Notes under the pieces: generated by a model | The model's database searches: none | Seen by the model: the letters and a program-made list of their open reading frames with translations, nothing else | Told to the model about the DNA's origin: nothing | Translations under genes and position numbers: made by a program | NCBI RefSeq assembly: GCF_020640915.1 | Contig: NZ_JADWDC010000026.1 | Span: forward strand, 1 to 59,296 | Direction of reading: 5' to 3' | Source: Waterburya agarophytonicola KI4 | GTDB taxonomy: Bacteria; Cyanobacteriota; Cyanobacteriia; Cyanobacteriales; Xenococcaceae | DNA: 59,296 bases | In this document: piece by piece, positions 18,759 to 42,177 of the stretch | Position numbering within the stretch: the first letter of the stretch is position 1 | Layout of the letters: every line of letters starts with the position of its first letter

Positions 18759-19760
18759 CTACACTGCTCCACTGTTTTTATTAAAAACAACCATAATCGT
18801 TTTCAAAATTATTTTGATATCGTATGATAAGCTCCAATTTTTTTGATAGTTCAAGTCTAACTGGACAACATCTTCAAAATCACGAACTTGAGATCGCCCG
18901 TTAACCTGCCATTCTCCTGTCATTCCTGGTTTAACATTCAATCTTTGCCAAGCCAGAATTTGATATTGATCCATTTCCTCTGGAGTTGGAGGGCGAGTTC
19001 CTACTAAACTCATCTCTCCTTTTAATACATTCCAAAATTGAGGTAATTCATCCAAGCTAGTACGACGGAGAAATTTTCCTACCCTAGTGACTCTAGGATC
19101 GGAATCATTCTTGAAAAAAGCTCCCTGAGCCTGATTAGGAATTTTTGCTCTCATAGTTTCTGCGTTTGTACACATAGAGCGAAATTTCCACATCCTGAAT
19201 TTTCCACCCAACCAACCACAACGGGTTTGACTAAAAAATATTGGACCAGGAGAATCAATTTTAATGGCGATTACGATAGGAATAAAAATAATTGCGGAGA
19301 TCGCCAAGCCAACAATTGCTCCCATTACATCTATTAAGCGTTTAAGCTCAGAATTAACAGAGGGATGGGATAACACTTGTTTTATATCAGCAGGTACTGC
19401 GATTGGTTGAATCTGAAATATATCGATCAAACCTGATATTTCTAAAACTCTAACTACCGATGGTCTTGGCTTCTGTAACACTAGTTGATGATTGTGTTTG
19501 GAAGCCACTTTATAAATTCTTACTAACGCTCCTACACCGCTACTGTCGATAAAACTGGTATTACTTAAATTTAAGATTAATTTACTGTCTGTGTGGGTAT
19601 TATCAATCAACTCGCAGCAAAAACTGCCAAAGGCAATTGACTCTAGGATAGTAAGTCTTGAGGGTACTTGAATAATACTGTTGTTGTTGACATTGGTAGT
19701 CGGAAAATCTTGATCTGAAATTGTGTTTCTCATCAATCTATCTTGAATACACCATTGCAT
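18759..19760 (-). CDS. STAS domain fused to a phosphoglycosyl transferase (undecaprenyl-phosphate sugar phosphotransferase)
   Basis: A 333-residue fusion. Residues 27-120 form a STAS (anti-sigma antagonist) domain with the phosphorylatable site FIDSSGVGALVRIYK (serines 73 and 74). Residues 138-333 form a monotopic phosphoglycosyl transferase: the membrane re-entrant helix around 142-168, PIFFSQTRCG, KFRMWKFRSM, and the catalytic Asp-Glu dyad D227-E228 in TSLDELPQFWNVLKGEMSLVGTRP. It would load the first sugar phosphate onto undecaprenyl phosphate. In SpoIIAA-like proteins the serine is phosphorylated by an RsbW-type kinase, so initiation could be under partner-switch control. ATG at 19760; an in-frame ATG at 19733 is an alternative start. 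Confidence 0.9.
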   Translation of the reverse strand: MQWCIQDRLMRNTISDQDFPTTNVNNNSIIQVPSRLTILESIAFGSFCCELIDNTHTDSKLILNLSNTSFIDSSGVGALVRIYKVASKHNHQLVLQKPRPSVVRVLEISGLIDIFQIQPIAVPADIKQVLSHPSVNSELKRLIDVMGAIVGLAISAIIFIPIVIAIKIDSPGPIFFSQTRCGWLGGKFRMWKFRSMCTNAETMRAKIPNQAQGAFFKNDSDPRVTRVGKFLRRTSLDELPQFWNVLKGEMSLVGTRPPTPEEMDQYQILAWQRLNVKPGMTGEWQVNGRSQVRDFEDVVQLDLNYQKNWSLSYDIKIILKTIMVVFNKNSGAV

Positions 19761-20124: not shown

Positions 20125-23100
20125 ATGGCTAATTTTTCAAGCAACAAAATAACTAACAATTTACATCAAGATTTAGTACCTCAGTTATCAGGAGATTATC
20201 TAGTTTGGCAAAGTGAGATTAATGGAAATCAAGAAATATTTCTTCGTGATTTAAGCTCTCAAACAACTAAGCAAATTACCACTAATTCTACAAATGACAT
20301 AAACCCCCAGATATCAGGAAACAATATAGTCTGGTCGGGCTGGAGGGATAACAATTATGAGATTTTTTCCTATAACATTAGTTCAGGTAATACGACTCAA
20401 ATTACCACTAATGACTACAACGATCTTCAACCTCAAATTTCGGGAAATAAGATAATTTGGCAAGGTTACGTAAACTCGGAAAATAGGTATGAGGGTTTTG
20501 GAGGAAGTTCTCTAGATACAGATCGAGATCCAGGTTCGTATGTAGGAATTCATCTAGGTAATGCTGGAGATGTCAAAAAACTAACTTCTAATACTGCTGC
20601 AATTAATCTTGCTCACGATTTAGATATTTCTTGGGGCAGGGCTAGTGGTGGACCTAAGCAATGGAACTCGTTTGGTTCTCTTTCTCCTCAAAACTTCGAT
20701 TCCATCGTAGACTATGCTAACAGTAAAGATGTCAGTATTTATCTCTACTTAGAATATAGAACTGATTTAGATGGTGGTTCTATTGACGATTTTGACTGGT
20801 ATCAAGTTGGTCGCACCTATGCAGACTATTTTGGCGATCGCGTGGAAGCCTACGGTATTATTAATGAGCCAGATCATGTGGTAAGCGGGAACTCTCCCCA
20901 AGAAGTCGCATTTGCTGTGGAAAAATTTGCTGACGGGGTACACTCAGTCAATTCAGACTATGTGGTCACTAGTCCTGGTGTGGGAGGAACACCCATGTCA
21001 ATTGAACGAACGGACGACTTCTTAGAAGCCCTAACTCCTTTGTTTAATGATGGTACTCTACAGGTTTTAAACCTCCATAGCTATCACGATTCTAAAGCCA
21101 AGCCTCATTATTCTAATATTGACCTTAGTAGTGATTTTGCCCCCAGCAAAAACTTTATACGAGCCAAAGAAGTAGGGGGAATTACTAAAAATATAGATTT
21201 TATCGCAGGAGAATTTAACTATCGTAACTGGGAAGGCACTGATGAAGATCGCAGTATCGGTTTTTTGACGGCTTTTTGGGATCAGCTATCTGTAGTGGGG
21301 AATGGGGGAGCTGATGACCGAGTAGGTTTATTTTCTGCTCCTTATACTATCACTGGTAGTCACCCTCAAAAGCAAACTAGTTTGGCAGATGCTTATTCCT
21401 TTGACAGCAATGGTAATTATGTATGGCAGCCTAACGAAAAAGGGCAAGTATTACAAGAAACTTTGACCCTAACTCAAGGGATGGATTTTATTCACACCGA
21501 TCCTCACGACAACGGTATCTTAATCCTCAAAGGAAGCGATCGCAAAATGTGGGTATGGCACAATCGAGAGGATTTTTCTAGCTTGAGTAATGATTCTGTA
21601 GTGCGGATATCAGGAATTCCCAGTGATGCTACTGGTTTAGCGGTTTATAGATCCGATAGTACTGCCGACCAACCTTACGCCATGATCGAGCTTGATGATC
21701 AAACGTCCGTTAGCTTTAATCCTGCGGATATTTTGCCTCAAGGTCAAACTTATATGTTGATGGCAAATAGCGATCGCGATGGGGGAAATGTTGGTTCCAT
21801 CGATTCGGCAACAGCCAATGGAGGAGATTTTATAGGTCAAGAAAAAGTAACTTTTTCACCTAATCTAAATGTTAGTTCAACAGGAACTCCAAACCAGGAA
21901 ATACTTAACTACAATCTTGATTCGGGAGTAACTACTCAATTAAGCCATAATGCTGGGGATGAATTTAGACCTGATATTGCTGGTAATCGTACAGTTTGGC
22001 TAAGTGATGATGGCAAAGTATTGACCTCCGATATTGGTTCGGGAACAACTGTTCAAATCGCTGACAATGCTAACGTCGAGCAAAATCCCAGTATTTCTGG
22101 CAATCGCTTAGTTTGGTCTGGGATGGATAGTGATGGTGACTATGAAATTTTTCTTTACGATTTTGGTTCAGGAATAACTACGAAGGTAACTAACAACACA
22201 GTCAATGATGCCAATCCACAAATCTCGGCAGATTATATTGTTTGGGATGGGTTTGAAGGTTCGGATAGTGGAAGCGATCGCGAAATTTTTGCTTACCAGC
22301 TAGCTACTAAGGATATTTATCAAATTACTACCAATAATGTTGAAGATCGAACTCCAAGCATTTCTGGAAATACTGTAGTTTGGTCCGGAATAGATAGCAT
22401 AGATAGCAATGGCGATCGTGAAATTTTTTCAACCACTTTTCAAAATGAAGATGTCGAAAACGTTGACCGAGAGCAAATTATCAACGGTACAAACCGAAAT
22501 GATACTCTTAACGGTAACGACAATAATGACGTAATTAATGGCAAATTTGGCGAAGATACTCTCTTTGGCGCGAAAGGCGAAGATTTACTCAACGGCAATC
22601 AAGATAATGATTTTATAAATGGAGGTGTTGATAACGATACTTTAAATGGTGGTTATGGTGATGACACTTTAGTGGGCGGATTTGGTCAAGATAGCCTCGT
22701 TGGTGGAAAAGGCAACGATGTTCTCAATGGCAATCAAAATGATGATTTTCTTAGTGGAAATGTTGGCAATGATACCCTCAATGGGGCTTATGGTAACGAT
22801 ATTTTATATGGTAGACATGGCAACGATGTCCTCAATGGCAGCCAAGGCAATGATATCCTACATGGCAACCACAACAAAGATACTCTTAATGGTGGAAGTG
22901 GTAACGATACTATTAGTGGCGGAAACAGTGCAGATCGCCTGATTGGTGGACAGGGTGCAGATGTATTTATCTACTATGGCTCTCAAGACAGGGGAGATTT
23001 AATTACTGATTTTCAAACAGGAATCGATCTGATTGATGTCAGTCGAATGATTTCAGCCAGTAGTAGCGATTATGGTAACTATTTAGAGTTTGTTCAATCT

Positions 23101-23220
23101 GGTTCTAATACTGTGATTAAAATCGAACCTGATGGTGATCTCACTTCGTCAAGCTCAGACTTTATTACTCTCCAAGGGGTAAATGCTACTGATATAACAG
23201 CAGACAGTTTTATTTTCTAA
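20125..23220 (+). CDS. Secreted clan GH-A-like glycoside hydrolase inserted in a seven-bladed propeller, with RTX repeats
   Basis: A 1031-residue protein with no N-terminal signal peptide. TolB-like propeller repeats carry a P-Q-I-S-G-N-x-x-V-W strand followed by EIF-Y and TTQITTN. Two complete blades (about 17-102) and half a third are followed by a TIM-barrel-like insert (about 118-588) with candidate catalytic glutamates E248 in GIINEPDH and E363 in IAGEFNYRN. The third blade resumes at NQEILNYNLDSG (590-601), and four more blades run to about 780. RTX nonapeptides (GGxGxDxLx type, about 785-945) and a serralysin-like C-terminal domain complete it. Expected export is by a type I secretion system, not present in this window. 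It probably hydrolyses or remodels a polysaccharide; the exact GH family is not determined. Confidence 0.85.
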   Translation: MANFSSNKITNNLHQDLVPQLSGDYLVWQSEINGNQEIFLRDLSSQTTKQITTNSTNDINPQISGNNIVWSGWRDNNYEIFSYNISSGNTTQITTNDYNDLQPQISGNKIIWQGYVNSENRYEGFGGSSLDTDRDPGSYVGIHLGNAGDVKKLTSNTAAINLAHDLDISWGRASGGPKQWNSFGSLSPQNFDSIVDYANSKDVSIYLYLEYRTDLDGGSIDDFDWYQVGRTYADYFGDRVEAYGIINEPDHVVSGNSPQEVAFAVEKFADGVHSVNSDYVVTSPGVGGTPMSIERTDDFLEALTPLFNDGTLQVLNLHSYHDSKAKPHYSNIDLSSDFAPSKNFIRAKEVGGITKNIDFIAGEFNYRNWEGTDEDRSIGFLTAFWDQLSVVGNGGADDRVGLFSAPYTITGSHPQKQTSLADAYSFDSNGNYVWQPNEKGQVLQETLTLTQGMDFIHTDPHDNGILILKGSDRKMWVWHNREDFSSLSNDSVVRISGIPSDATGLAVYRSDSTADQPYAMIELDDQTSVSFNPADILPQGQTYMLMANSDRDGGNVGSIDSATANGGDFIGQEKVTFSPNLNVSSTGTPNQEILNYNLDSGVTTQLSHNAGDEFRPDIAGNRTVWLSDDGKVLTSDIGSGTTVQIADNANVEQNPSISGNRLVWSGMDSDGDYEIFLYDFGSGITTKVTNNTVNDANPQISADYIVWDGFEGSDSGSDREIFAYQLATKDIYQITTNNVEDRTPSISGNTVVWSGIDSIDSNGDREIFSTTFQNEDVENVDREQIINGTNRNDTLNGNDNNDVINGKFGEDTLFGAKGEDLLNGNQDNDFINGGVDNDTLNGGYGDDTLVGGFGQDSLVGGKGNDVLNGNQNDDFLSGNVGNDTLNGAYGNDILYGRHGNDVLNGSQGNDILHGNHNKDTLNGGSGNDTISGGNSADRLIGGQGADVFIYYGSQDRGDLITDFQTGIDLIDVSRMISASSSDYGNYLEFVQSGSNTVIKIEPDGDLTSSSSDFITLQGVNATDITADSFIF

Positions 23221-23344: not shown

Positions 23345-23785
23345 TCACCATCCTATTAGGTAGCGACTGTTTTTCTTGAAAATGTTTTTTATAATCTGAG
23401 CTATTCCCATAGATCCCAACAACAAACAAAAACCTACAGTCAGCCAAAGGAAATAATTTCCTTCGTAGTAAAAATCATTTTTAAATAATATCCACCTTCC
23501 TGAACTCATCAAGATAGGATGAATAAAATAAATGGCAAAGCTTTTTTGAGCTAGCTGATTTAAAGCTTTAATATTTGTCTCTTCATAAGTAGCAAGCCAA
23601 GACATTAATAAAAAGCCAGAAATGAATATGAAATACACGCTACCATGTTTCATTAAAGAGAAAAAAGCCCTGTCAAACAAAGTATTTATATTAATTTCTG
23701 ATAAGCCATAGCTGTGACCAAAAACAATAATCAATATAGCAATACCTCGAAAATAGTTGATTGAATTTAAAAATCTCTTTTTCAT
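23345..23785 (-). pseudogene. Acyltransferase family 3 remnant with an internal deletion
   Basis: A 146-residue open frame. Its start (NYFRGIAILIIVFGHS, then YFIFISGFLL) matches the N-terminal helices of acyltransferase family 3 membrane proteins, and its second half (ALNQLAQKSFAIYFIHPILM, two hydrophobic helices) matches the C-terminal part. Such proteins usually have about 330-370 residues and ten or so helices. Here the central part is missing, with the frame preserved near SGFLLMSW. The catalytic-type histidine in VFGH is kept, but too few helices remain for the normal fold. It probably once acylated a glycan from this locus. It is convergent with the RTX hydrolase. Confidence 0.7.
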
Positions 23786-24375: not shown

Positions 24376-24515
24376 TTATAGCTGTATAGATAATAAAGAT
24401 CAATCAATAAATCCACTCTACACTCATAAGTTTACTCACTGGGTAAAAATATATTTGTAATAGTTTTATTCCAAACTATTTGTTCAATTTTTTAAACTCA
24501 TTTTCAATTTTATAT

Positions 24516-26561
24516 ATGCACTATACAAAACCGAGGTTGCAAAGCTTTCAGTTTGACCGAGTTAAAAAAGTCCTCAAATATAGCTTTCTAACAGGCTTTA
24601 TTGCCAGTATCACAATCTACTTCGCATCCTCTTGGGGTGTAAATGTAATATCTTCCTATATTAATCCAGCCTACTATACAGAGATTCCCTTCGGCTATCA
24701 TTCCCATTGGATACAGCCTTGGAGAGCCTATATGGAAACTATTCCCGCACAAAAGTTTATCGATGGTATTGGTGTAGTTTTTAATATTAATCTTGAAAAA
24801 ACTAATGTCAACCCAGATTTAGTGGCAGAAATGGTTGCTCGTCATGGGGTCAGACAAGCTCGCGTGGAAATCAATTGGAACTATATTAATTATGACGACG
24901 AAACCAAAATTGATAATACCCAAGAAATTACGCCAAAATTATTAGCTCTTCAAAAGCATAATATTCGTCCTTTAATTTTGCTTAATGCTAATCAAGGTGC
25001 GCCTTGTCCAATGAAGACATTTCGCAAAACCCTATCTAGAAATGCTGATGTGGGGGATCTAGAAATTAGACTAGACAATATCGACGGTATTGTACCTAAC
25101 TACAGCGGTTTATCCCACGTTCTTGATAAACCTTGGGCTGCCGAGATTTTAATTACTCAAGTAAATGGAAATTGGATCACTTTATCCAAACCAATACCTG
25201 AATTCATTAATGTTGGTACACCAATAGATATTGCCACACTGAAGTACCGTCCTTTTGCTGACCCAGAAAGTGCAGACTATCGAAAAACTATAGCTGGATG
25301 GCAAAAATATGTAGCGACAGTAACTCAGTTTGTCACAGAAACTTTGGGAACAACTAACAGCAAAGATAAAGGTTTTGACCTAGAGATCTGGAATGAGCTT
25401 TCTTTTGCATCAAATTTTCTCTACATCAATGAATACTATGAAGAAGAGATCTATAAATATAAAAAGAATGATATTTGGCAAAGTATAGTGGTTGATACCG
25501 TCAAATATATTGAAAGACATCCTCAAGACTTTTCAGGGGTAGAGGTAAGCAATGGTTTTTCTAACACAACTCCTTGGCCCGCATCTTCACAGATGCCATC
25601 TCGCATCAAAGCTATCAATAAACATCCCTATAGAAGTCGTGTAGAATTTCCCGAACAAGAATATCAGGGTAGCCAAGCTTTAGATGCTTTAGGTAACGAA
25701 ACTAATTTTACTCCCACTTATTCAATTTGGTTTCCTGAATACTTTGCTACTTTTTTGCAGACAGAAACCATCCTTAGAGATATGTCTCCATTTCCTGTTG
25801 AATTTGGAGGAGCAACTCATGGACGCAACGCTAGAGTGGTAGATGGTAAGGTATTACCCACGACTATTTGGATGACTGAGGTTAATATTCATCCAGAAGA
25901 AGATGATTCTAATGTAGATCAGACTAAAGCTTTAGTACTAAAGGCAAAGGCAGCAATGCGTTACTTTTGTTTTTATCTTAACAAAGGGACAGAAAGAGTA
26001 TATCTCTATAATGTGCTGGGTGACAGCGATAACAGGGGATATGGAGTGGTACAGGCTAATTTTACTCAATATGCTACTCAGGGTAGCGAAAATTATCCCC
26101 AATCCGATCAAAAATATGTATCTCCAACTTTGTTAACTACTAGCCGTATAGTAGAGCAAATGAAAGATGATCTTGATCCAAATCTGATCGATCTTAAAGA
26201 GTTGGAAGTCGTTTCAATCAAAGAAAAACATAACAATTATCAATTTAAAGGAGATGGTTCAATGAAGCATCCCAATCTTTATAACCGAGAGGTATTTACT
26301 TTTCTTCCTTATCAAGTCAACGCTAATAAATTTGTCATTCCTTATTATGTAATGACCAGAGATATTGCAGAAGACTTAATTGCAGAAAACTATACAGTGA
26401 GTATTAGAGGATTTGATTCAAAAGAACTAAAAGTTAAAATATACGATCCTTTCCAAGATGAATATTTGTCAGATGTTTCTACTAAACAGAAAGGTGATTT
26501 GGCGGTTATGAATCTAGAAACAAAAGATTATCCTCGCCTACTCATAGTTGAGACAAAATAA
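24516..26561 (+). CDS. Membrane-anchored clan GH-A-like glycoside hydrolase
   Basis: A 681-residue protein with an N-terminal signal anchor (about residues 22-42) and a large extracytoplasmic part. A TIM-barrel-like hydrolase domain shows the acid/base candidate E294 in LEIWNELSF and the nucleophile candidate E455 in TIWMTEVNIHP. The spacing and the W-N-E / T-E pattern resemble GH39-like families, though I cannot fix the family. An insertion of about 100 residues separates the first strands from WQKYVATVTQF. The C-terminal 130 residues look beta-rich. I chose the ATG at 24516; a TTG at 24480 in frame adds 12 residues. It lies beside the polysaccharide operon, converging with its last gene, and probably acts on the exported polymer. 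Confidence 0.8.
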   Translation: MHYTKPRLQSFQFDRVKKVLKYSFLTGFIASITIYFASSWGVNVISSYINPAYYTEIPFGYHSHWIQPWRAYMETIPAQKFIDGIGVVFNINLEKTNVNPDLVAEMVARHGVRQARVEINWNYINYDDETKIDNTQEITPKLLALQKHNIRPLILLNANQGAPCPMKTFRKTLSRNADVGDLEIRLDNIDGIVPNYSGLSHVLDKPWAAEILITQVNGNWITLSKPIPEFINVGTPIDIATLKYRPFADPESADYRKTIAGWQKYVATVTQFVTETLGTTNSKDKGFDLEIWNELSFASNFLYINEYYEEEIYKYKKNDIWQSIVVDTVKYIERHPQDFSGVEVSNGFSNTTPWPASSQMPSRIKAINKHPYRSRVEFPEQEYQGSQALDALGNETNFTPTYSIWFPEYFATFLQTETILRDMSPFPVEFGGATHGRNARVVDGKVLPTTIWMTEVNIHPEEDDSNVDQTKALVLKAKAAMRYFCFYLNKGTERVYLYNVLGDSDNRGYGVVQANFTQYATQGSENYPQSDQKYVSPTLLTTSRIVEQMKDDLDPNLIDLKELEVVSIKEKHNNYQFKGDGSMKHPNLYNREVFTFLPYQVNANKFVIPYYVMTRDIAEDLIAENYTVSIRGFDSKELKVKIYDPFQDEYLSDVSTKQKGDLAVMNLETKDYPRLLIVETK

Positions 26562-28504: not shown

Positions 28505-29650
28505 CTAGAACCTTAAAGCAGTTTGTAAAAGCCGATCTACCTGCTGCTGATTTCTTTCTAAGGTAAAGCGATCGCTTGCCAATTTTTGTCCTGATGCAGC
28601 TATCTTGGCGGTATTTTCTGGATCTTGCTGACACTGGTTGATAGTTTTTGCTAGTGCTAGATAGTCTCCCGAAGGGAAAAGCCAACCCATTTTGCCTTCT
28701 TCTACTAATTCCATTGTTCCTCCGTTTTTACTGGCGACTAAAGGTTTACCAGACAACATTGTTTCTACCAAAACTCTAGAAGCTGGCTCTGGTGCAGTGG
28801 AAGTATGTGCGATTAGATCGCAGCCTGTCATTAGACGGGGTACATCGCGACGAAAACCCAAGAATCTAACTCGTGAGGTTAAATTTAACTCTTTTACCTG
28901 TTGTTTTAGCCGTGCTGCATATTCTTCCTCACCAAACAGTGCATCTCCGACAAAAACAGCCACAACATTGTCGGGACATTGGGTTAAGGCTTTCAACAAT
29001 ACATCTTGACCTTTCCAGGGGGACAATCGACAAAAATGTCCCACGATAAATTTATCATCAAAACCCAGCTCTTGTCTTACGGCATCTCTTTGGGATTCAT
29101 AGCCTTGAAATTGGCTGGCTTCAAAACCGTTATAGATCACTTCGACTAACTCGGCTTTTCCTCCTGCTTCAATAAAAGCCTCTCGTGCTGCTTGGGATAC
29201 TGCGATAATCTTGTTGGCAAAGCGGTTAGCTAGGATAACGATAAGGCGGCGGTTGGTTGTGCTGAAATGTTCGGGAGTCAGAATATCGTGGAGATGATAA
29301 ACAAAAGGGCGATCGCTCAAAGCACTAGCCAAAGCTCCAATTACCATTGCTTTGGGAGTATTGGCATAAATCAAATCATAGTCACGGCTTAATTTAACTA
29401 TTTTTAACAGCAGGGGAATGAATTTACCCAAGCTGCTGACTCCCTGAAGTAAACTACTTTCTCTTTTTACTTCAATGGGTTTACTAGCCAAAACAGTTAC
29501 AGGAGTATTTTGTTTGGTTAGTAATTCTTGAAATGGGCCATCTTCAAACAAGCCTACTAAACATTGTTGTTTGTATGGTTTTACTAAATCTAATAAAACT
29601 CTTTCTGCTCCTGCAAGTTTACCAGTTTGATCTAAAAATAATACTTTCAT
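28505..29650 (-). CDS. Glycosyltransferase family 4 (GT-B)
   Basis: A 381-residue GT-B enzyme. The N-terminus MKVLFLDQTGKLAGAERVLLDL has the usual GGAE-like loop. The donor domain has VGHFCRLSPWKGQDVLLKAL and, for the EX7E region, EPASRVLVETMLSGKPLVAS. The frame stays open upstream to 29758, but the ATG at 29650 fits the family and avoids overlap with the preceding GT2 gene. It is probably one of the enzymes that build the repeat unit at the cytosolic face of the membrane. Sugar specificity is unknown. Confidence 0.87.
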   Translation of the reverse strand: MKVLFLDQTGKLAGAERVLLDLVKPYKQQCLVGLFEDGPFQELLTKQNTPVTVLASKPIEVKRESSLLQGVSSLGKFIPLLLKIVKLSRDYDLIYANTPKAMVIGALASALSDRPFVYHLHDILTPEHFSTTNRRLIVILANRFANKIIAVSQAAREAFIEAGGKAELVEVIYNGFEASQFQGYESQRDAVRQELGFDDKFIVGHFCRLSPWKGQDVLLKALTQCPDNVVAVFVGDALFGEEEYAARLKQQVKELNLTSRVRFLGFRRDVPRLMTGCDLIAHTSTAPEPASRVLVETMLSGKPLVASKNGGTMELVEEGKMGWLFPSGDYLALAKTINQCQQDPENTAKIAASGQKLASDRFTLERNQQQVDRLLQTALRF

Positions 29651-29711
29651 TTTGATATGTATATTTATTGTTTTCAATTTGATTGATTGTAAACAGAACA
29701 AAAAAATAAAC

Positions 29712-30539
29712 TTACATGGTTTTTTGCAAAACTTTGTCATGCAAAGGCATAATGCCAAATTCTTGCTTGATATCTTCGGATAATTTTTGGGATTTAATTC
29801 TTTTATAAAAGTCCCCTACAATGAATTTAGCCTGCTCTTTTACAGGGCGATCGCTTTGCGTAAAAAAGCTTTTCTGTAGCCAAATATTTTCTTGATTGTC
29901 GGTCATATAAATTGAACCAGGAAAAGGCAGAGGATCTAGGGGCGTTCCTTTTTCCGCTAAATATTTACCAAACATTTGGTGACGTTGATAATCTCTGGTG
30001 ATAGCGTCAAATTCAATCCATTGGGGAAATACTAAATCGAATCGAAAAATGTAGCTCGTTCCGCATTTTTGATTAAATTTTTGCTGTCGTAAAAAGATTG
30101 TATTTTTACCTTCTTCGTATTCATAACCCTGGTCACAATACCAACCATTGCTATCAGAATCTTGCTGTCGCACAAATTCTACTATACGGTTACTAATACA
30201 GTCATCCGCATCGACAAACATAATATGAGAAGGATTAAAATTCTTGGCTTCTGCCAAACCAAGCCACATTTTACGTCCTTTATCAACACATTGATTGTGA
30301 TTTTCTGAGCGCACAAAATTCTTTTTATTCCAGTAGGGAATAGGAAAATCAACCTGTAAATAACTGACGCAAGGATGAATAAAATCAATCTCTGGCTTTT
30401 CGTGACATACACAAATAACTTTGAAGTTTTGGTTGGTTTGCTGACATATCGAACGTAGGGTGCGTTCAAATAGCTTACAAACTTGTGACCAAGAGTTAGA
30501 TACCTGCGCGCTTTTAATTGGGACAATAAAGACAAACAT
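29712..30539 (-). CDS. Glycosyltransferase family 2-like (GT-A)
   Basis: A 275-residue protein with a GT-A start (FVFIVPIKSA, then LRSICQQTNQNFKVICVCHEKP) and a metal-binding DXD-like site in IMFVDADDCISNRIV. The middle has LGLAEAKNFNPSH, which positions the DXD loop. The C-terminal third is not recognisable. It probably adds one sugar of the repeat unit using a nucleotide-activated donor. It sits tightly between two GT4 genes in the operon (47 and 61 bp gaps). Confidence 0.8.
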   Translation of the reverse strand: MFVFIVPIKSAQVSNSWSQVCKLFERTLRSICQQTNQNFKVICVCHEKPEIDFIHPCVSYLQVDFPIPYWNKKNFVRSENHNQCVDKGRKMWLGLAEAKNFNPSHIMFVDADDCISNRIVEFVRQQDSDSNGWYCDQGYEYEEGKNTIFLRQQKFNQKCGTSYIFRFDLVFPQWIEFDAITRDYQRHQMFGKYLAEKGTPLDPLPFPGSIYMTDNQENIWLQKSFFTQSDRPVKEQAKFIVGDFYKRIKSQKLSEDIKQEFGIMPLHDKVLQKTM

Positions 30540-30586
30540 AAGTGGTGAGAAAAAGAAAGGGAGAAAGGAAAAATCTATGTTACGAA

Positions 30587-31738
30587 TTAGTTTTTTTGGC
30601 TAATTGGAGTTATTTCTGATTGAGTTGCTTGTATATAATCAGAATCCTTGAGATCGAGTAGTCGATGGATAAAATCGCGAAACTTGGGAGCAATTACCTT
30701 ATAGTCAAAGCTTTTAGCAGCAACTTCGACAGCGGCAGCTTTTTTGGCGTTAACTTCCTGCCAGCCTAGATTATCGAGCCATACAGCACATCGATCTAAA
30801 AACTCGCGATCGCTTGGATGTCCTTCTGGTAATGCCCATCCTCCTTGGGCTGCGTAGTCATAAAAGGCAGCAGTGGGATTCATGGCTACAGGAACACCAC
30901 AGGCCAAATATTCAGGTAGTTTGGTAGTCAGACGGTATTTGCCCATCTCACCAAACAGAGTTACAAAACCAATGTCCATGGCATTCATGGCTTCGACTAC
31001 TTCTGATTCTGGTAAACGCCCTGTAAAAACAATGCGATCGCGTAATTCCCTGGGTACAGCTTTTTCCATACGCTCTTTACCGTCGCCATCACCGACAACC
31101 AAGAAAGAAATATCTTTGCGTTTAACTCGTTGCAGAATTTCCCCTAATTCATAGCCATAGCAATAAGATTGACGTGGCACCCAAATCAAACTGCCCACCA
31201 CACCACACACCAAATGATCTTCAGAAATGCCTAGTTTTTGGCGAATTGCGCGACGCCTTTCTTGACTGTAGGGATAAAAAATGTCCGAAGCTACTGCTCC
31301 TTCTACAGTTACAGCCTTTGGTGCGCCCATTCTCATCGCTACTCCTGTTAAATAGGGAGTCCAGCCGATAAAACCCGCACTAAAACGGTAGAGCAAATGC
31401 TCATAAATCTCAAAGAGATTACCGATTAAATTGCCTTTAGTGGTGCGGAAAAAACCAGCAATAGGATCGCCTGAAGAGACTACATAGGGTTGTTTTCGGA
31501 GTAGGGAAGCCAAAATAAGGTTGGCACCACTAGCTATTCCTGTACCTTCTTGATAAACTAAATCCCAAGGCTGATTTAATACCCGTCGGATATCTTTAGC
31601 CGACTCAATTTTAGATTTGCTGCGATCTATAAAGTAGTAGGTGATATCAATATCTGCCTGAAGCCATTTAGTCAGGCGATAGATTCTACGCTCATCCTGA
31701 CTCCCTTTGCCTGATGTACCAATACAAAGAATTTTCAT
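30587..31738 (-). CDS. Glycosyltransferase family 4 (GT-B)
   Basis: A 383-residue GT-B glycosyltransferase. It begins MKILCIGTSGKGSQDERRIYRL. The linker has VVGSLIWVPRQSYCYGYELGEILQRV in place of the usual R-x-x-x-x-K-G, so the donor-phosphate contacts may differ. The later donor segments are FTGRLPESEVVEAMNAMDIGFV and LTTKLPEYLACGVPVAMNPTA, where the glutamate of LPEYLACG is conserved. It is expected to act at the cytosolic face on the lipid-linked repeat unit. Donor unknown. The gap to the sulfotransferase is 33 bp. Confidence 0.82.
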   Translation of the reverse strand: MKILCIGTSGKGSQDERRIYRLTKWLQADIDITYYFIDRSKSKIESAKDIRRVLNQPWDLVYQEGTGIASGANLILASLLRKQPYVVSSGDPIAGFFRTTKGNLIGNLFEIYEHLLYRFSAGFIGWTPYLTGVAMRMGAPKAVTVEGAVASDIFYPYSQERRRAIRQKLGISEDHLVCGVVGSLIWVPRQSYCYGYELGEILQRVKRKDISFLVVGDGDGKERMEKAVPRELRDRIVFTGRLPESEVVEAMNAMDIGFVTLFGEMGKYRLTTKLPEYLACGVPVAMNPTAAFYDYAAQGGWALPEGHPSDREFLDRCAVWLDNLGWQEVNAKKAAAVEVAAKSFDYKVIAPKFRDFIHRLLDLKDSDYIQATQSEITPISQKN

Positions 31739-31771
31739 AAAATTATCGATTTTTAAAATACTATGTTTGTT

Positions 31772-32764
31772 TTAAGCACCAAAGCGATAGCCAAAACTTT
31801 CCACATCTTCGGTGTATCTTTGCTTAACCAGGGCTAAAAGTTCGGGAGTATAAAATTCGGTATATGCCGGATATTGAGACAATTGACGCAATTGATGAGG
31901 AGTATAGCCAGCATAATCTTCTGTTAAAATATTTTCTTTAACTTCTGCTCTTTTACTACGATTTGCCCAGCCTAAGTTAGCTTCTACTCCAATTTTTTCG
32001 GCGATCGCACCAAAGTCTGTACCTAAAGTTTCGATCCGACCAAGATAGTCAAATTTGTTTTGGTTGATAAACATCGATTGGGGTTGCCAATGTCCATCAA
32101 TCTCTTTGTTTTGGTGAGTTAATAGATATTCAATAAATTCTTTAAAAGTAATGCCCCTAGAGTAATCTACAGGGAGATCTTTATCTTGATAATATGCTTC
32201 TACTACCTGTTTGCCAGGAGAGCTAGACTGCTTGATGTCTATGGGTTTAACAAATTTATTTAGATAAGCAGAAGTCAATCTGTCCCATGGATTTCTCACG
32301 ATCGCAAATTTAAAATAATCGGGGTTGTCCAACAATGCCATTGCTGTTTCTCTTTGGTGAAGATAGTTAGCAAAAAAAGACAGGTTGTGGTCTACATAAG
32401 CGTGGAATAGCTTGGGGGGAAGGTTGAGGACTTCTTGCTTATTTTCTAAGTCGCTCAACTCCACCGCAAAACGCTTAAAACTAGAACAGGCTACTTTAGG
32501 AATGGGACAGTAAACAAACTTGTACTTGTGGTTAGCAATATAGGCTTTTTCTGCCCAAGGCTCTTCTAACCACCCAGGTTTGGTTTTAAAAATTGCCTTA
32601 TCGGCGATCGCTTTAGCTGCAACGGCATAGTAGTTGATCGCCTGTCCGATTTTTCCTTCTTTCGCAAAATTGTTGGCTAAATAAGCAGGGGCTTTACTAC
32701 CAGAATCATTAAGCTGTAGCAAACCAGTAATGGCATTGATTTGAGTTGTTTTTAATATGGGCAT
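31772..32764 (-). CDS. Carbohydrate sulfotransferase (sulfotransferase family 2-like)
   Basis: A 330-residue PAPS-dependent sulfotransferase candidate. The 5'-phosphosulfate loop is FVYCPIPKVACSSFKRF, with the P-K-V-A-x-S-S form typical of Sulfotransfer_2 enzymes. The 3'-phosphate motif is FAIVRNPWDRLTSAYLNKF. Together they bind PAPS, and the acceptor is normally a sugar hydroxyl. Its place inside the Wzx/Wzy operon indicates that the polymer, or its lipid-linked repeat unit, is sulfated. It has no transmembrane segment, so it would act in the cytosol before flipping. No PAPS synthesis genes lie in the window. Confidence 0.88.
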   Translation of the reverse strand: MPILKTTQINAITGLLQLNDSGSKAPAYLANNFAKEGKIGQAINYYAVAAKAIADKAIFKTKPGWLEEPWAEKAYIANHKYKFVYCPIPKVACSSFKRFAVELSDLENKQEVLNLPPKLFHAYVDHNLSFFANYLHQRETAMALLDNPDYFKFAIVRNPWDRLTSAYLNKFVKPIDIKQSSSPGKQVVEAYYQDKDLPVDYSRGITFKEFIEYLLTHQNKEIDGHWQPQSMFINQNKFDYLGRIETLGTDFGAIAEKIGVEANLGWANRSKRAEVKENILTEDYAGYTPHQLRQLSQYPAYTEFYTPELLALVKQRYTEDVESFGYRFGA

Positions 32765-32834
32765 TAGTTTTAAAAGTAATGTTTATCTAAATAATTGAAC
32801 TTATCAAAGCTAATTTAGGGGAAACATTAAAGAA

Positions 32835-34268
32835 TCAACCTGACATGATTTTTTTCTCCCGATTAATGTATTGCTCTCCTATTTGCAGTCTCATTAGGGT
32901 TTTTTGATTTTGATGATATTGATGGGCTGCCACACCTATCCCCAGAAAAGCCCAAAAAATAATCCCTTGAACCCCTGCCAGAGGACTATTAAGGGGTAAA
33001 CGAGCGATAATGGTCATCACAACCCCTCTCGTAGCAGTGGCAAAGGCATCGTTGCTACTAGCAGATTGATAAAATAGGTTAGCAATCAGCAACAACATTC
33101 CTCCCATGTAAAAGGCTGTACCAACCCAACCCAGGTTCATCAATAAAGCTAGTAAAGTACTGTCATATTGCTTCCCACCAAGCCCATCACCAAGCCAGTT
33201 AGTCAAAGCATCACCAATCACTTCTTCATAGGTATCTTGTCTTGCACTAGCACTACCGTCATTTTCCAAACTGCTAAAACTGCTAAATCGCTCGGTAATT
33301 CCTGAAAATTGTTCTATTTGAGTCATGGGAACAATACATAGTGCGATCGCTAAAAAAACAGCAATTAGACGAATTTGAAATTTTTCTTTGAGAGAGAAAA
33401 TCAAAAACAAAAAGCCTACCGCCCATCCCAACCAGCTTGTTCTTACCATTGCCAATAAGAAAGATAAGTAGCCAGCAATCTGTGCTGGCATACTTAATTT
33501 ACTGGTGCTACACAAAAGTAATAGCAACCCCGCAGCCATAAAACCGGCAAAGGGTTCGGGAGAATTGAGGGTCGAATAAACACGACATTTTAAGGGTTCA
33601 AATCCCCCATCACAGATACTATCAATAGGAGCATTTCTCAACCAATTGACTTCCCATTGAGGTAATAATAAATATTGAATTATGCCATAAACACCAACAA
33701 TTAGGACACCATATAAAAAAACTCGTTCCAGATTGCGCTTATATTCAGGATATCTACGCCAGTTAACATAGAGATGAAAGCCAAAAATAACTGGAGTAAA
33801 CCAGTCTAAAGATGCAATGACAAGTTTTGAGGGAGAACGAGTTAGAACACCTACCAAAAGACTATAAGATAAACCCATCAAAGATAAAATAAATGGTGTT
33901 CCCAGTTTTCCTAAGCGATTTAGCTTTGGTATCTGCTTGTATAAAGTGATCGAGCAAAGAGCAGTAACCAAAAATGGAGTTAATAAAATAGGACTAGGTT
34001 CGGTATAAACCCCTCCCATGTCTGCCAAGCGACGAACAAAAGGAGTCAAAAACCACAACCACCAAGTAAAGCCAATATATAGGATTGGATAGCTATTGTA
34101 TAAGAAAAACCCCACACACAATGATGCCAGTGGAAATAGCAGGGTGACAAACCTGCCAAAAGGAGGAACAGAGCCAATTAACCCCATAAATATAAGACCA
34201 ATTATGGCAATCCAGGCGGGGGCAGGTTGTAGTTTAAAAGAGAATTTTTTGGTTGAATTAATCGCCAT
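32835..34268 (-). CDS. O-antigen/exopolysaccharide polymerase (Wzy/O-antigen ligase type)
   Basis: A 477-residue membrane protein with about ten to twelve hydrophobic segments and a large polar loop around residues 205-235 (ending near DGGFEPLKCRVYSTLNSPEPFAG). The layout is that of Wzy polymerases and WaaL ligases, which cannot be told apart reliably by sequence. Its place beside Wzx and Wzc genes favours a polymerase that joins repeat units in the periplasm. I chose the ATG at 34268, four bases after the preceding GT4 stop; a longer frame to 34334 would overlap that gene. Confidence 0.8.
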   Translation of the reverse strand: MAINSTKKFSFKLQPAPAWIAIIGLIFMGLIGSVPPFGRFVTLLFPLASLCVGFFLYNSYPILYIGFTWWLWFLTPFVRRLADMGGVYTEPSPILLTPFLVTALCSITLYKQIPKLNRLGKLGTPFILSLMGLSYSLLVGVLTRSPSKLVIASLDWFTPVIFGFHLYVNWRRYPEYKRNLERVFLYGVLIVGVYGIIQYLLLPQWEVNWLRNAPIDSICDGGFEPLKCRVYSTLNSPEPFAGFMAAGLLLLLCSTSKLSMPAQIAGYLSFLLAMVRTSWLGWAVGFLFLIFSLKEKFQIRLIAVFLAIALCIVPMTQIEQFSGITERFSSFSSLENDGSASARQDTYEEVIGDALTNWLGDGLGGKQYDSTLLALLMNLGWVGTAFYMGGMLLLIANLFYQSASSNDAFATATRGVVMTIIARLPLNSPLAGVQGIIFWAFLGIGVAAHQYHQNQKTLMRLQIGEQYINREKKIMSG

Positions 34269-34272
34269 AATT

Positions 34273-35436
34273 TCAATTAACTTGGAGCATTTTAGGGCTG
34301 AAGGCTGGCTGTTTAAGCAAATACTGCTGTTCAAAAAGGTCGAGATATTTACTTGCGGTACGATTCCAACTATGATTTTGAGCGATCGCCATTCCTGCCT
34401 GACCCATAGCTTGACCCACTCTCGGATTAGCTGTTATTTGGGCTATAGCATCCGTTAGAGCATCCACATCTTCTGTATCTGATAAGACAATTCCCGATTC
34501 GGGAGTCACCAAAGCAGCTACTCCCATTGCCTCAGTTGTAATCACGGGTAAAGCACTTGCCATTGCTTCTAATACCACTAGTCCAAAAGTGTCATATCTT
34601 GATGGCACGACAAATAAATCTACCCCCCGCATAATTTCGGCAATATCCCGTCGAAAGCCAAGAAAATGAACGCGATCGCTTAGACCTAATTCTTCAGCTA
34701 ATTTGGGATATGGACTGCCTGGCAATTTTCCTGCCACTGCCAAATGAACGTTTGGTAAAGACTTCAAGGCTTGCAGTAAGGTTTCAAGATTTTTACGCGG
34801 TAGCTTAATATCTCCCACAAACAAAGCCAAGGTCACATTTTCTGGTAGCCCTAATGCTTTTCTGTCTGCTGTGCCTGGATAAAATTCTGTTAGTTCTACT
34901 CCATTGTTGATTACACTGATTTGAGATTTATTAATCTCCTTTGCTATTAGTGCTTGACGCAAAGTTTCTGATACTGCCACCAACGAAGGTGCTGAAGGAA
35001 AAAGCTTGTTTTGCCAAAACGAAAACCACTTACCAACAATTAAATGATAAAGACTATAAATCGTTGGTCTAATTTGCCAGGGGTGAAAGGGCGATCGCAA
35101 CCAGGTATCAAATAGAAAATGACAGGTAAAAATGTCTGCCCCTGTCCATAATCTAGCATCACTCACATGAACCAAATCGAATTCGTGACGATGTCGATCT
35201 AACCATTTGGTTGCTCGATAGCCAAAACCTGTAAAGGACAAAATATGAGTTGGCAAACCTTTGGCGGGTAATTTAAAACAGGAAACGCGATCGCTTTCTA
35301 ATAACTCTGGGGCAATATTTCTAGCTACCAGAGTTACTTCATAACCTCGACGAATAGCTTCTGCTGCTACTTCGTAATTAACTCTACCTTCCCCAAGATT
35401 TGTCAAAAAATTGACTGCTACCAAACAGATTTTCAT
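34273..35436 (-). CDS. Glycosyltransferase family 4 (GT-B)
   Basis: A 387-residue GT-B glycosyltransferase starting MKICLVAVNFLTNLGEGRVNYE. The donor domain has ALFVGDIKLPRKNLETLLQAL and FLGFRRDIAEIMRGVDLFVVPSRYDTFGLVVLEAMASALPVI, where glutamate and glycine positions of the EX7E region can be read. It probably adds a sugar to the lipid-linked repeat unit; specificity unknown. It is separated by 4 bp from the Wzy-like gene and by 37 bp from the flippase, which shows tight co-translation. Confidence 0.87.
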   Translation of the reverse strand: MKICLVAVNFLTNLGEGRVNYEVAAEAIRRGYEVTLVARNIAPELLESDRVSCFKLPAKGLPTHILSFTGFGYRATKWLDRHRHEFDLVHVSDARLWTGADIFTCHFLFDTWLRSPFHPWQIRPTIYSLYHLIVGKWFSFWQNKLFPSAPSLVAVSETLRQALIAKEINKSQISVINNGVELTEFYPGTADRKALGLPENVTLALFVGDIKLPRKNLETLLQALKSLPNVHLAVAGKLPGSPYPKLAEELGLSDRVHFLGFRRDIAEIMRGVDLFVVPSRYDTFGLVVLEAMASALPVITTEAMGVAALVTPESGIVLSDTEDVDALTDAIAQITANPRVGQAMGQAGMAIAQNHSWNRTASKYLDLFEQQYLLKQPAFSPKMLQVN

Positions 35437-35473
35437 TTTTATAGATTTTTAAATAATAAAAGCTGGCTGATTA

Positions 35474-36817
35474 TTAACTAATTTTTTTCTGTTTCCTGCG
35501 GGCTGATTGAAAAATGAACGCCAAATCCTCCCTATTTAATAAAAGACTAGGAGGCTTGACTTTCAAGACAAATCCATAGCTTAAATACACCAAAAGCAAT
35601 CTAATCGAACTCGAACATAGTAATGCCATTCCTGCCCCTTCCAAACCATAGATAGGAATTAGCAAAAACATTAGAGGAACACTGAATGCCACTCCTAAAC
35701 CCTGGAGTAGAGTAACAAAGCCTGGTTTCCCCACCGCCATAAAAGCCTGAAGAAAAACCCAGACAGTGCCACTAACTATAATTTCTACCAGTAAAATTCT
35801 AAATACAGCGATCGCTGCTAGAAATCTTTCTCCATAAAGAGCGTCCAGCACCAGGGGAGCAAGCAAACCAACTACAATTCCAGCACAGCAAGTCAAGGCT
35901 AAACTAGCTCTTACTGCCCTGCCAGTTGAGGCAACCACTTCCTCTTTGGGACGACCAGCCACCGAGGGAAAAAGCACTGTGACAAAAGAGGTCTGAAACA
36001 CACTCATCATGCGGGACAAACTGAGGGCAACGACATATATGCCTAAGTTATTGCTGCTTAAAAGACCGACAATGACAACCTGGCTAAGTTGACCAGACAG
36101 AGTTTTGACTAGCTCGACTCCATAGGAGCGAATACCATAGCCTACTAGTAAACGATAGGCATTTTTCAAGCCCACCCAGCGAAACTTAAACATATTGCGT
36201 AAATAGCCAACTCTAGTGGCAAATACAACAATCCCTGGCAAAACATACGCCATTGCTGCGTTGTAAGAAGTCATGTTGTCAGATGCGACAAATCCCACCA
36301 GCATAATCAATGTGCCTACTGGCATCATGTATTTTCCAACGTTGGAAATAGCAAATTGAGAAGAAGCCTCTAAAGAAACAGCAAACAACTGAGCTAAGAG
36401 AAAAATTGGCACAATGGGCATAAACAGCTGTGCTGTACGAATCATCCCAGGGGGATATTGAGACAGCCATCGGGGTAAGAACATAACGCCCACAATTGCC
36501 GAAGTAACACCCAAAATCGTGCAAATAATCACCGCAGCCGAAAAGAATTTGTTTCTTTGTTCTGGATAGCGTCGCAAATTGTAAACCAAAGCCGAGGGTA
36601 TGCCGAGAGTAACCACATTAGCGAGAAATTCTGGCCACAAAATCAGAGCTGCTTGTTCCCCTCTTCCAGCAGGACCAAGAGTTCTAGCCGTAATCATTCC
36701 CGTCAGGACATTGATGCCCAAGATTCCAATCATCGTCATCATGGTTTGGGCGGTGGCAGCAACCGTACCTTTCCCTTCAATTAGCCACCTGGCTTTTTTG
36801 CTTAAATTTTGGAGCAT
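35474..36817 (-). CDS. Polysaccharide flippase (Wzx/MATE-like, MVF superfamily)
   Basis: A 447-residue integral membrane protein with about twelve to fourteen hydrophobic segments, the size and layout of Wzx flippases. The conserved early helix reads GILGINVLTGMITARTLGPAGRGEQAAL, including the ARxLGPxGRG pattern of the family. It would move the undecaprenyl-linked repeat unit from the cytosolic to the periplasmic face. It lies between a GT4 and a phosphoglycosyl transferase-like gene in the operon. Confidence 0.88.
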   Translation of the reverse strand: MLQNLSKKARWLIEGKGTVAATAQTMMTMIGILGINVLTGMITARTLGPAGRGEQAALILWPEFLANVVTLGIPSALVYNLRRYPEQRNKFFSAAVIICTILGVTSAIVGVMFLPRWLSQYPPGMIRTAQLFMPIVPIFLLAQLFAVSLEASSQFAISNVGKYMMPVGTLIMLVGFVASDNMTSYNAAMAYVLPGIVVFATRVGYLRNMFKFRWVGLKNAYRLLVGYGIRSYGVELVKTLSGQLSQVVIVGLLSSNNLGIYVVALSLSRMMSVFQTSFVTVLFPSVAGRPKEEVVASTGRAVRASLALTCCAGIVVGLLAPLVLDALYGERFLAAIAVFRILLVEIIVSGTVWVFLQAFMAVGKPGFVTLLQGLGVAFSVPLMFLLIPIYGLEGAGMALLCSSSIRLLLVYLSYGFVLKVKPPSLLLNREDLAFIFQSARRKQKKIS

Positions 36818-36911
36818 TTAATATTGATTCCTTGATGGTGACTGTAAGATAACTAGGTGACATAATTTGGTCGGGCACTAAATTGTTGAAATGAGTGCAT
36901 TTCATTCCTGC

Positions 36912-37781
36912 CTAAAGTTCGACGATTCTGCTGGCAGGATCTTTGGCTCTAAATGAGCGGAGTAAAGCAAGGGCAAGAATTTTAAAATCAGATAACACAG
37001 ACCAATGGCATAGGTAACTATAGGCTTTGGTTGATATTGCTCTTAAATCTGTTTTCGGCGATCGCCAAGGAGTAGTGCTAATTACCCCAGGAATACTATT
37101 TAATACTTTGCGCTGAGTAGAATTTAGATTGAGAGTTTCTTCTATTGAAAAAGGATAATGACCGACTAAACTCATTTCTCCCCGCATTACATTGATTAGT
37201 TGAGGAAGCTTATGTATTCCTAACCGAAATCCTTGACGACTCCAGAAACTAGGAGAATTATTGTCTGCCCAATCAAAAGTCTGGAAGATCAAACCTCTTT
37301 TTCCGACGCACCATCGCTTGTCTAGGACAGGCTGACCAAATAATTTTCGTTTAAAAGCGATCGCCAATCCCAAAGGAGAAAGCAGCAGCAGTATCAAAGA
37401 AACTGCAACTAAATCAGCAAACCTTTTAACTTTCCAAGCTATAGTGCGATGTATCAAAAATATATTTAGATCCGAGCTAATATTCAAAAATACTTGCTTG
37501 CCAGATTTTTTCGCTGCTATCACCCAATTTTTCACTTCTGTTTCACTTAGATTGGGGGTAACACGGATACGCTTAATGGGAGACTTTTGGAGACAATTAA
37601 GCAACCACCAGTCTGACTTTAAGGCGATCACATCTACCGAATTGAGGTCGCGATCGCTTTTAACCATTAACATCTTGTCGCGCCATTTTAAATGGCATTG
37701 ACCCATGGAAGAAGAACTTGTGCCAATCTCTTGGTTAGAGCCGATAGTTCTGATTTGAGTTATCTGTACATAGTTGACCAT
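36912..37781 (-). CDS. Phosphoglycosyl transferase homologue lacking the catalytic Asp-Glu dyad
   Basis: A 289-residue protein. An N-terminal region of about 115 residues of unknown fold is followed by a bacterial sugar transferase domain: a hydrophobic membrane helix LADLVAVSLILLLLSPLGLAI-like (about 121-142), KLFGQPVLDKRWCVGKRG, and KLPQLINVMRGEMSLVG. Active relatives have D-E just before L-P-Q. Here H190-K191 take that place, and the region upstream (FDWADNNSPSFW) is shortened compared with the K-F-R-S-M segment. It is therefore unlikely to transfer a sugar phosphate and may be a regulator or scaffold. The STAS-fused paralogue at 18759-19760 has the full dyad. Confidence 0.82.
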   Translation of the reverse strand: MVNYVQITQIRTIGSNQEIGTSSSSMGQCHLKWRDKMLMVKSDRDLNSVDVIALKSDWWLLNCLQKSPIKRIRVTPNLSETEVKNWVIAAKKSGKQVFLNISSDLNIFLIHRTIAWKVKRFADLVAVSLILLLLSPLGLAIAFKRKLFGQPVLDKRWCVGKRGLIFQTFDWADNNSPSFWSRQGFRLGIHKLPQLINVMRGEMSLVGHYPFSIEETLNLNSTQRKVLNSIPGVISTTPWRSPKTDLRAISTKAYSYLCHWSVLSDFKILALALLRSFRAKDPASRIVEL

Positions 37782-37812
37782 TATTTTTACTTCCTAAATT
37801 ATTTAAGTACTT

Positions 37813-40020: not shown

Positions 40021-40069
40021 GCCGTTAATCCTTAATATAGTTGTTTAATTAGTTAGACATTCAAGACTT

Positions 40070-41176
40070 CTAGTTGAAAATTTCTAGAGCAGACGAACCG
40101 TAAAATTCTCCAACAATTTGTTTAACCTTGCTAAAAAATACTCCCTCAGAAAAGTTGTTGACTGCGTGGTTGCGAATTTGGTGATAATCCCAATCTGTTT
40201 GTTCTGCTTTACTTAGGGCATTGTGCAAAGCTTCTGGAGTCTGAGGTGAAAACAAAATTCCTGTTTCACCGTCAATCTGCGTATCGAGAACTCCACCAGC
40301 ACCGTAGGCAATTACAGGAGTACCGCTAGCATTTGCTTCTATGGGTACTAAACCATAATCTTCTAGAGCCATGACAACGACTCCTTTAGCTTGCGACATC
40401 AGCTGATTGCGAAAGTCGTCTTCGACGTAACCCAAGAATTTGACGTTTTCTAGAGCTAAAGATTCTAATTTCTCTCTTTCTGGTCCATCCCCAATAATGA
40501 TTAAGGGCAAGCCCAACCAGTTGAATGCTTCGATTACGATATCAAGACGTTTGTAGCTAATCATGCGAGAAGAGACTAAGTAGTAGTCATCTTTAACATC
40601 AGAAAAAATAAATTTGTTGGTATTAATGGGGTAGTTGACTGTTAAAGCATTTCTTTTGTAGAGTCTTCCGATTCTTTCTGCAACAATACTGGAGTTGGCA
40701 ATATATAAATCTGGCTCTTGGGCATACTCCACATCAACTTTTCTGATCAGGTTAAAGATTTGGTTGATTAGGGGAGAAAATGACCTAAAACCACTGTTTT
40801 CCTGGAGGTATGTTCTGGTATCCCAAAGAAAACGGGTAACATTGTGACAAAAACAAATGTGCATTGCCCCTGGTTTTTTGCGTACAGCTTTAGCAAAACA
40901 AGAAGTACTACTGATGATGAGGTCGTATTCTTGTAAATCTAAAGAGCGAAATGCTGGATAGTAAAAAGGTGCAAATAAGCGAAAGTAATTAGTTACTCCT
41001 GGAATATCTTGAAGAAAAGTAGTATTGACTTCTCTTCCTTCCATGTCTACTGTTTGGTCTTCATTATATATAGATGTATATATATCTCCTTGAGGAAAAT
41101 AAGAACAAAGCATGGCAAATATTCTTTCTGCCCCACCTTTTTGCGTTAAGTAGTCGTGAACTAAAGCTATTTTCAT
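40070..41176 (-). CDS. Glycosyltransferase family 4 (GT-B), first gene of the operon
   Basis: A 368-residue GT-B enzyme. The start MKIALVHDYLTQKGGAERIFAML has the GGAE loop, FLWDTRTYL is typical of a WcaI/mannosyl-type subgroup, and the donor domain shows YYLVSSRMISYKRLDIVIEAFNW and EDYGLVPIEANASGTPVIAYGAGG (EX7E). Sugar specificity is unknown. With about 466 bp of noncoding DNA upstream, it is likely to be the promoter-proximal gene of the leftward operon, which continues at short spacing to at least 28505. Confidence 0.88.
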   Translation of the reverse strand: MKIALVHDYLTQKGGAERIFAMLCSYFPQGDIYTSIYNEDQTVDMEGREVNTTFLQDIPGVTNYFRLFAPFYYPAFRSLDLQEYDLIISSTSCFAKAVRKKPGAMHICFCHNVTRFLWDTRTYLQENSGFRSFSPLINQIFNLIRKVDVEYAQEPDLYIANSSIVAERIGRLYKRNALTVNYPINTNKFIFSDVKDDYYLVSSRMISYKRLDIVIEAFNWLGLPLIIIGDGPEREKLESLALENVKFLGYVEDDFRNQLMSQAKGVVVMALEDYGLVPIEANASGTPVIAYGAGGVLDTQIDGETGILFSPQTPEALHNALSKAEQTDWDYHQIRNHAVNNFSEGVFFSKVKQIVGEFYGSSALEIFN

Positions 41177-42008: not shown

Positions 42009-42177
42009 ATTTGAGTTTTTAACTATTCTAAAAAAATGTTTATAAATATGCTCTGATGTGAATTTTATGTTTAACAGCTTACGTTTTTTGATAAAGGCTA
42101 ATAAATCAATAGCCAAAAAAGAATAAATATCAATCAAACTGGCAATCTTACCCACGTAAATATTGGAGTTACATATC

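Follow-up and report, generated by a model that had tools for sequence, protein, structure and literature searches.

A glycosidase-like domain inserted into one blade of a propeller in an RTX protein of the cyanobacterium Waterburya agarophytonicola

Organization of the gene

The stretch of DNA analysed here, which we call the window, comprises 59,296 nucleotides of Waterburya agarophytonicola KI4 (Xenococcaceae; contig NZ_JADWDC010000026.1). The gene of interest lies on the forward strand (20125..23220) and encodes a protein of 1031 amino acids that consists of a split propeller, an inserted glycosidase-like domain and an RTX tail. An earlier note on this DNA had given the frame as 20125-22460; this frame is open and encodes the strings quoted there, but the gene ends at 23220.

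The N-terminal part of the propeller (residues 1-117; 20125..20475, forward strand) starts with a short strand and continues with blades 1 and 2 and the first half of blade 3, as delineated by the TIGR04275 model, a blade HMM and the strands predicted by AF2 (block pLDDT 50-87). It is followed by the insert (residues 118-589; 20476..21891, forward), i.e. linkers and a predicted GH39-like catalytic domain, which was recognized by its similarity to PF01229 relatives (hhalign, 93%) and which has homologues in an uncultured Pleurocapsa MAG (locus L021), in the genomes G149 and G513, and in Rhizobium. The second half of blade 3 and blades 4-7 make up the C-terminal part of the propeller (residues 590-775; 21892..22449, forward), delineated by TIGR04275, the blade HMM and AF2.

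The remainder of the chain (22477..23217, forward) carries RTX calcium-binding nonapeptide repeats (PF00353, 102.8 bits, Pfam cut-off 23) and a type I secretion target region (TIGR03661, 32.9 bits, NCBIfam cut-off 17.6). Two RTX cytotoxin models scored far below their cut-offs (NF033943, 86.2 bits against 1000, best stretch 778-883; NF033203, 61.5 bits against 2000, best stretch 662-884). The tail suggests that the protein is exported by a type I system. No actual type I transporter was identified in the genome; the domain Peptidase_C39, known from type I transporters, is encoded at four places. A second RTX protein is encoded within the window (42163-44835, forward); its seven FG-GAP stretches belong to another propeller type. 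We note that the RTX/type I tail, the polysaccharide cluster and the propeller-free relatives described below were absent from the earlier note.

Genomic surroundings

The divergent neighbour of the gene (18759..19760, reverse strand) encodes a STAS domain and a bacterial sugar transferase, and is also found upstream of the L021 homologue (76% identity). Beside it lies an NB-ARC/STAND-type ATPase gene (17184-18551, reverse), and this order is conserved in L021 (73% identity over 156 residues). About 5 kb downstream in window coordinates, i.e. with our gene upstream of it and on the opposite strand, there is a Wzx/Wzz-type polysaccharide cluster (28505..41176, reverse) with glycosyltransferases, a sulfotransferase, Wzy-like and flippase-like proteins, a sugar transferase and a Wzz/Wzc-like protein; the Wzy-like match (24.5 bits) is under its cut-off of 31.7. 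Since the sulfotransferase (31772-32764, reverse; PF03567, 118.5 bits) sits inside the cluster, the sequence suggests that the exopolysaccharide made there is sulfated.

A polysaccharide-type gene neighbours the enzyme gene in the window, in L021 and in G513, where a glycosyltransferase gene is about 3.3 kb away. The Rhizobium tumorigenes homologues are surrounded by genes for a glycosyltransferase, a flippase, an O-antigen ligase family protein and exopolysaccharide transport. The exception is G149, for which 8 of the 10 ORFs of one locus, L128, were scanned and none proved to be a polysaccharide gene.

Between the gene and its next neighbour on the forward strand there is an ORF of 146 codons (23345-23785, reverse) that matches 59 of the 326 positions of an acyltransferase-3 model and is perhaps a remnant. 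The neighbour itself (24480..26561, forward) encodes 693 residues without a family match above cut-off in Pfam or NCBIfam, and it adjoins the enzyme gene in G513 as well. Relatives of this protein occur in all four Xenococcaceae genomes that have the enzyme and in 4 of the 23 that lack it (Fisher p 0.004, with no correction for phylogeny); identities are 69-74% in the three other enzyme genomes and about 50% in the four genomes without enzyme. The G149 relative is on another contig and has two stops, and in G525 the match covers 210 residues only. By eye, the motifs 'LEIWNELSF' and 'WMTEVN' of the 693-residue protein look glycosidase-like; hhalign gave 2.2% against GH39. Its candidacy as a relative of the insert was unsupported (hhalign 0.1%). 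Directly upstream of the enzyme gene of G513 lies an ORF of 517 codons (L031, 2416-3969, forward), lipoprotein-like by eye, with the motifs 'ELGNEFYF' and 'WITEYN' and no match in NCBIfam; it is possibly another glycosidase.

The propeller and its split blade

Motifs of the 'ISGNxxVW' type start at residues 21, 63, 105, 618, 657, 700 and 746, and the TIGR04275 propeller repeat matches in seven stretches (139.2 bits, NCBIfam cut-off 85), therefore the repeats are real. The seven blades counted in the earlier note, the split one included, are thus correct for the window protein. It is conspicuous that the third and the fourth first-half motifs are about 510 residues apart, vs the usual distance of about 40.

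To analyse the break, 34 repeats from five Xenococcaceae arrays without interruption (L063, L064, L065, L067 and L068) were combined into a blade HMM. Before the insert, model positions 1-18 match residues 103-120 (18.4 bits), and after it positions 19-35 match residues 592-610 (-1.9 bits). When the insert was removed (1-117 joined to 590-780), blade 3 became a single match over positions 1-35 with 27.6 bits; the gain was gone (18.1 bits for blade 3) when the second half was removed too. Removal of the insert likewise joined blade 3 in G149 (20.4 bits, model positions 1-40) and in L021 (22.6 bits, positions 2-38). In other words, one blade is split in register in all three sequences, with the halves ending at residue 117 and resuming near 590, just as had been proposed.

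The exact resume point was scanned over 652 positions (118-769). The true point 589 reached 32.2 bits and was outscored by joins to intact blade 5 (49.1 bits) and intact blade 6 (39.3 bits) and by a chance match within the insert (at 201; 35.8 bits, model positions 1-23 only), so the scan supports site 589 as a compatible but not a unique solution. The break would fall into the B-C loop, i.e. between the strands that we read as B and C. An assembly artefact is ruled out by the identical split in three genomes. A recent acquisition of foreign DNA is unsupported, the third-position GC being 0.308 in the insert and 0.299 and 0.271 in the flanks. The domain insertion is real and conserved.

Profile similarity of the insert to GH39

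The catalytic domain spans about 400 residues (approximately 139-545, boundaries drawn by eye) with linkers on both sides. A profile of six sequences, two of which (those from Rhizobium) are nearly identical, was compared by hhalign with a set of 17 ORFs picked by PF01229, 14 above and 3 below the cut-off of that model. The result was 93.0% (E 3.5e-7, 200 columns), and the register placed the INEPD motif on the NE motif of GH39 and the GEFN motif on SEYN. Eight column-shuffled profiles gave at most 1.1% against the same set. With a profile restricted to the four cyanobacterial sequences the value fell to 65.7%, and the Rhizobium pair by itself gave 7.0%. GH5 (18 ORFs, 3.2%) and GH13 (16 ORFs, 4.2%) were rejected as the nearest family, three families being compared in all; for reference, GH39 against GH5 of the same clan gave 75.7% and GH39 against GH13 gave 0.6%.

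The two glutamates named in the earlier note are exactly residues 248 and 363, and the insert of clan GH-A type that it had claimed is borne out by this profile comparison, with both glutamates in register. Both are invariant in the six sequences: E248 (20866..20868, forward), the predicted acid/base, aligns with the NE of a GH39 relative, and E363 (21211..21213, forward), the predicted nucleophile, aligns with SEYN and lies in GEFN, or TEFN in Rhizobium. We take E248 to be the acid/base of the NE motif and E363 the nucleophile of the SEYN motif; together with N247, H318, Y320 and W434, which are also invariant in 6/6 sequences down to about 29% identity, they presumably correspond to clan GH-A positions.

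The search of the insert against family profiles thus revealed a distant similarity to GH39 but no match to a Pfam model (E up to 1), i.e. the insert falls outside PF01229 as it is currently modelled. Neither the homologues from Rhizobium (searched at E up to 0.5) nor the core segments of all six sequences (at E up to 10) matched a Pfam family, NCBIfam was negative for the insert, and sequence searches of the PDB with the insert, a Rhizobium homologue and two profiles gave chance-level matches only (best E 0.12). AF2 modelled the insert by itself with low confidence (pLDDT 34, pTM 0.24), and Foldseek found no match at E <= 0.001 with this low-confidence model (pLDDT 34). From the profile comparison, the insert appears to be GH39-like and of clan GH-A type, beyond every family model used here, and it would presumably adopt a TIM-barrel fold.

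Distribution of the insert and of uninterrupted propellers

The closest homologues of the insert are those of L021 (80%; the sole locus in that collection), G513 (78% identity) and G149 (77% identity). The L021 match and that of G525, a genome of the same genus as the window, are one contig. The two nearly identical proteins of R. tumorigenes (27%, E 2e-22 and 1e-21) are 442 residues long, lack the propeller and are encoded on two plasmids. The insert is rare. It occurs in 2 of the 195 genomes sampled from the order, in 4 of 27 Xenococcaceae genomes and, by profile search, in 1 of 386 genomes sampled from the phylum, where the samples overlap and the own genome is included each time. Among 72,556 plasmid records two have it; at E up to 10 these Rhizobium records were joined by a single match from Azospirillum (E 9). 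No relative was found in phage and viral collections. A weak match in G272 (E 0.0085, 62 residues) was not recovered with the profile and was taken as chance. The architecture of propeller plus insert is common to three genomes, i.e. the window, G149 and L021.

TIGR04275 repeats are more widespread (20 of 27 Xenococcaceae genomes; none above cut-off as single stretches). The loci of the best matches were surveyed with the blade HMM and gave 28 ORFs, not all of them independent as the loci overlap. Arrays of 7-9 hits that lack the long insert were found in 9 of the 27 genomes, so relatives without the insert, the existence of which had been posed as a check, do exist. The sole gap of hundreds of residues among the 28 ORFs is in the G149 copy of our gene (L037, 478 residues), the window's own copy being cut by the locus ends in this survey. 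Smaller gaps of 87 and 131 residues (L042, L046) and of 54 residues (L039) may be degenerate repeats. The window protein resembles the TIGR04275 repeat proteins in its score and its seven stretches, but its uninterrupted relatives L063, L064 and L065 bear CBM6 modules in place of the insert; a fourth, L068, bears RTX repeats.

Proposed function and alternative readings

Our preferred reading, to which we assign a probability of about 0.65, is that of a secreted, retaining GH39-like glycanase that is housed in blade 3 of a propeller and cuts the exopolysaccharide of its own cell, with the propeller as an accessory. The protein would be exported by a type I system and then fold outside the cell, driven by calcium. 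Flanked by a linker on either side, the GH39-like domain would occupy the loop between strands B and C of blade 3, an arrangement that would still let the ring close around the interruption, with the first strand of the chain completing the last blade. The most likely substrate of the retaining hydrolysis would be the exopolysaccharide of the nearby cluster, and cleavage would control its chain length or its release. The propeller would be an accessory, perhaps a binding module that docks on the polymer as the earlier note had suggested; it seems dispensable, as one relative apparently lost it.

A more far-reaching version, which we put forward tentatively and consider rather doubtful, is that the insert represents a new glycoside hydrolase family, that propeller and barrel form one polymer-binding cleft, a lectin ring broken by its enzyme, that holds the nascent exopolysaccharide of the cell and sizes it outside, and that lineages can discard the propeller when their polymer changes.

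The claim of the earlier note that the propeller came first and the enzyme later fits the distribution, with uninterrupted arrays in 9 of 27 genomes and the enzyme alone in Rhizobium. The opposite order, in which enzyme and RTX repeats came first and propeller repeats were added around them, would make G513 the original state: its protein has the enzyme and RTX repeats without a propeller match (a tandem-95, cadherin-like region has 56 bits, under the cut-off of 90), and the Rhizobium homologues have no propeller either. We consider this order improbable on account of two observations. The N-terminus of the G513 protein, NFIPLISEDNLV, resembles blade 3 of G149, DTIPLVSGDNLV, such that 0 of 5000 shuffles were as good, although this stretch was picked after the resemblance had been noticed; the resemblance to the window (396 of 5000) and to L021 (222 of 5000) is weak, and the blade HMM does not detect the half-blade. 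Moreover, the tree of the six sequences groups G513 with G149 (94), not apart from all three propeller-bearing sequences, and places Rhizobium on a long branch. Because the half-blade matches G149 and the tree groups the two, G513 suggests a loss of the propeller in which an apparent half blade was retained.

It is also conceivable, but quite improbable, that the enzyme is flanked by two independent repeat arrays (2.5 and 4.5 repeats, arisen by duplication) that do not form one propeller. The number of blades is indeed not fixed, which speaks for this possibility: there are seven in the window vs eight in G149, and the L021 array is cut off by the contig end. Likewise, no closure of the ring was seen in the AF2 model of the full chain, for which the alignment consisted of two rows, the window protein and L021. 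In this model, blade-like strands precede and follow the insert (block pLDDT mostly 50-87), and residues 116-590 are mostly below pLDDT 50. On the other hand, three strands are predicted for its last blade and a short one for the start of the chain, which matches a ring closed by the N-terminus, as far as the model can be trusted. In three related sequences the two half repeats complement each other in phase; these sequences count as one observation because they go back to one inherited event. The uninterrupted arrays of the nine genomes also speak for one propeller. The top Foldseek matches of the full-chain model were TolB propellers (E ~1e-9; 474 matches at E <= 0.001). The TolB propeller is six-bladed, and we know of none with any such insert.

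Finally, a glycosidase-like domain that is catalytically dead or non-hydrolytic and binds sugar only would agree with the lack of a curated family match and with an activity that is predicted only, but it is quite improbable given the six residues that stay invariant down to about 29% identity.

Relation to known systems

Our preferred reading, the secreted glycanase, has parallels in two described systems. PslG is described as a retaining endoglycosidase of family GH39 that belongs to the Psl polysaccharide gene cluster (PMC11912335). The profile of the insert resembles GH39 with both glutamates in register, and PslG itself is likened here by its description; the insert differs in that it misses PF01229 and sits inside the propeller of an RTX protein. 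PlyA and PlyB of R. leguminosarum are described as glycanases that are secreted by the type I system PrsDE, cleave the exopolysaccharide of the producing cell and have a lectin-like domain (PMC5061743). The analogy, again by description, lies in type I secretion and an accessory lectin-like domain, but the Ra/CHDL domain of these proteins is given there as C-terminal and uninterrupted by the enzyme (PMC5061743). In the text of the synechan biosynthesis paper covered by a word search, 'hydrolase' was met solely in the reference list (PMC8205485). Keyword searches of the literature found no report of a glycoside hydrolase TIM barrel inserted in a beta-propeller, the single match being a paper on DPP IV.

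The interrupted, uninterrupted and apparently lost propellers provide a natural series in which to study the tolerance of this fold for large insertions. The enzyme may also be of use for cutting exopolysaccharide of cyanobacteria, which would be a sulfated polymer if the sulfotransferase of the cluster acts on it.
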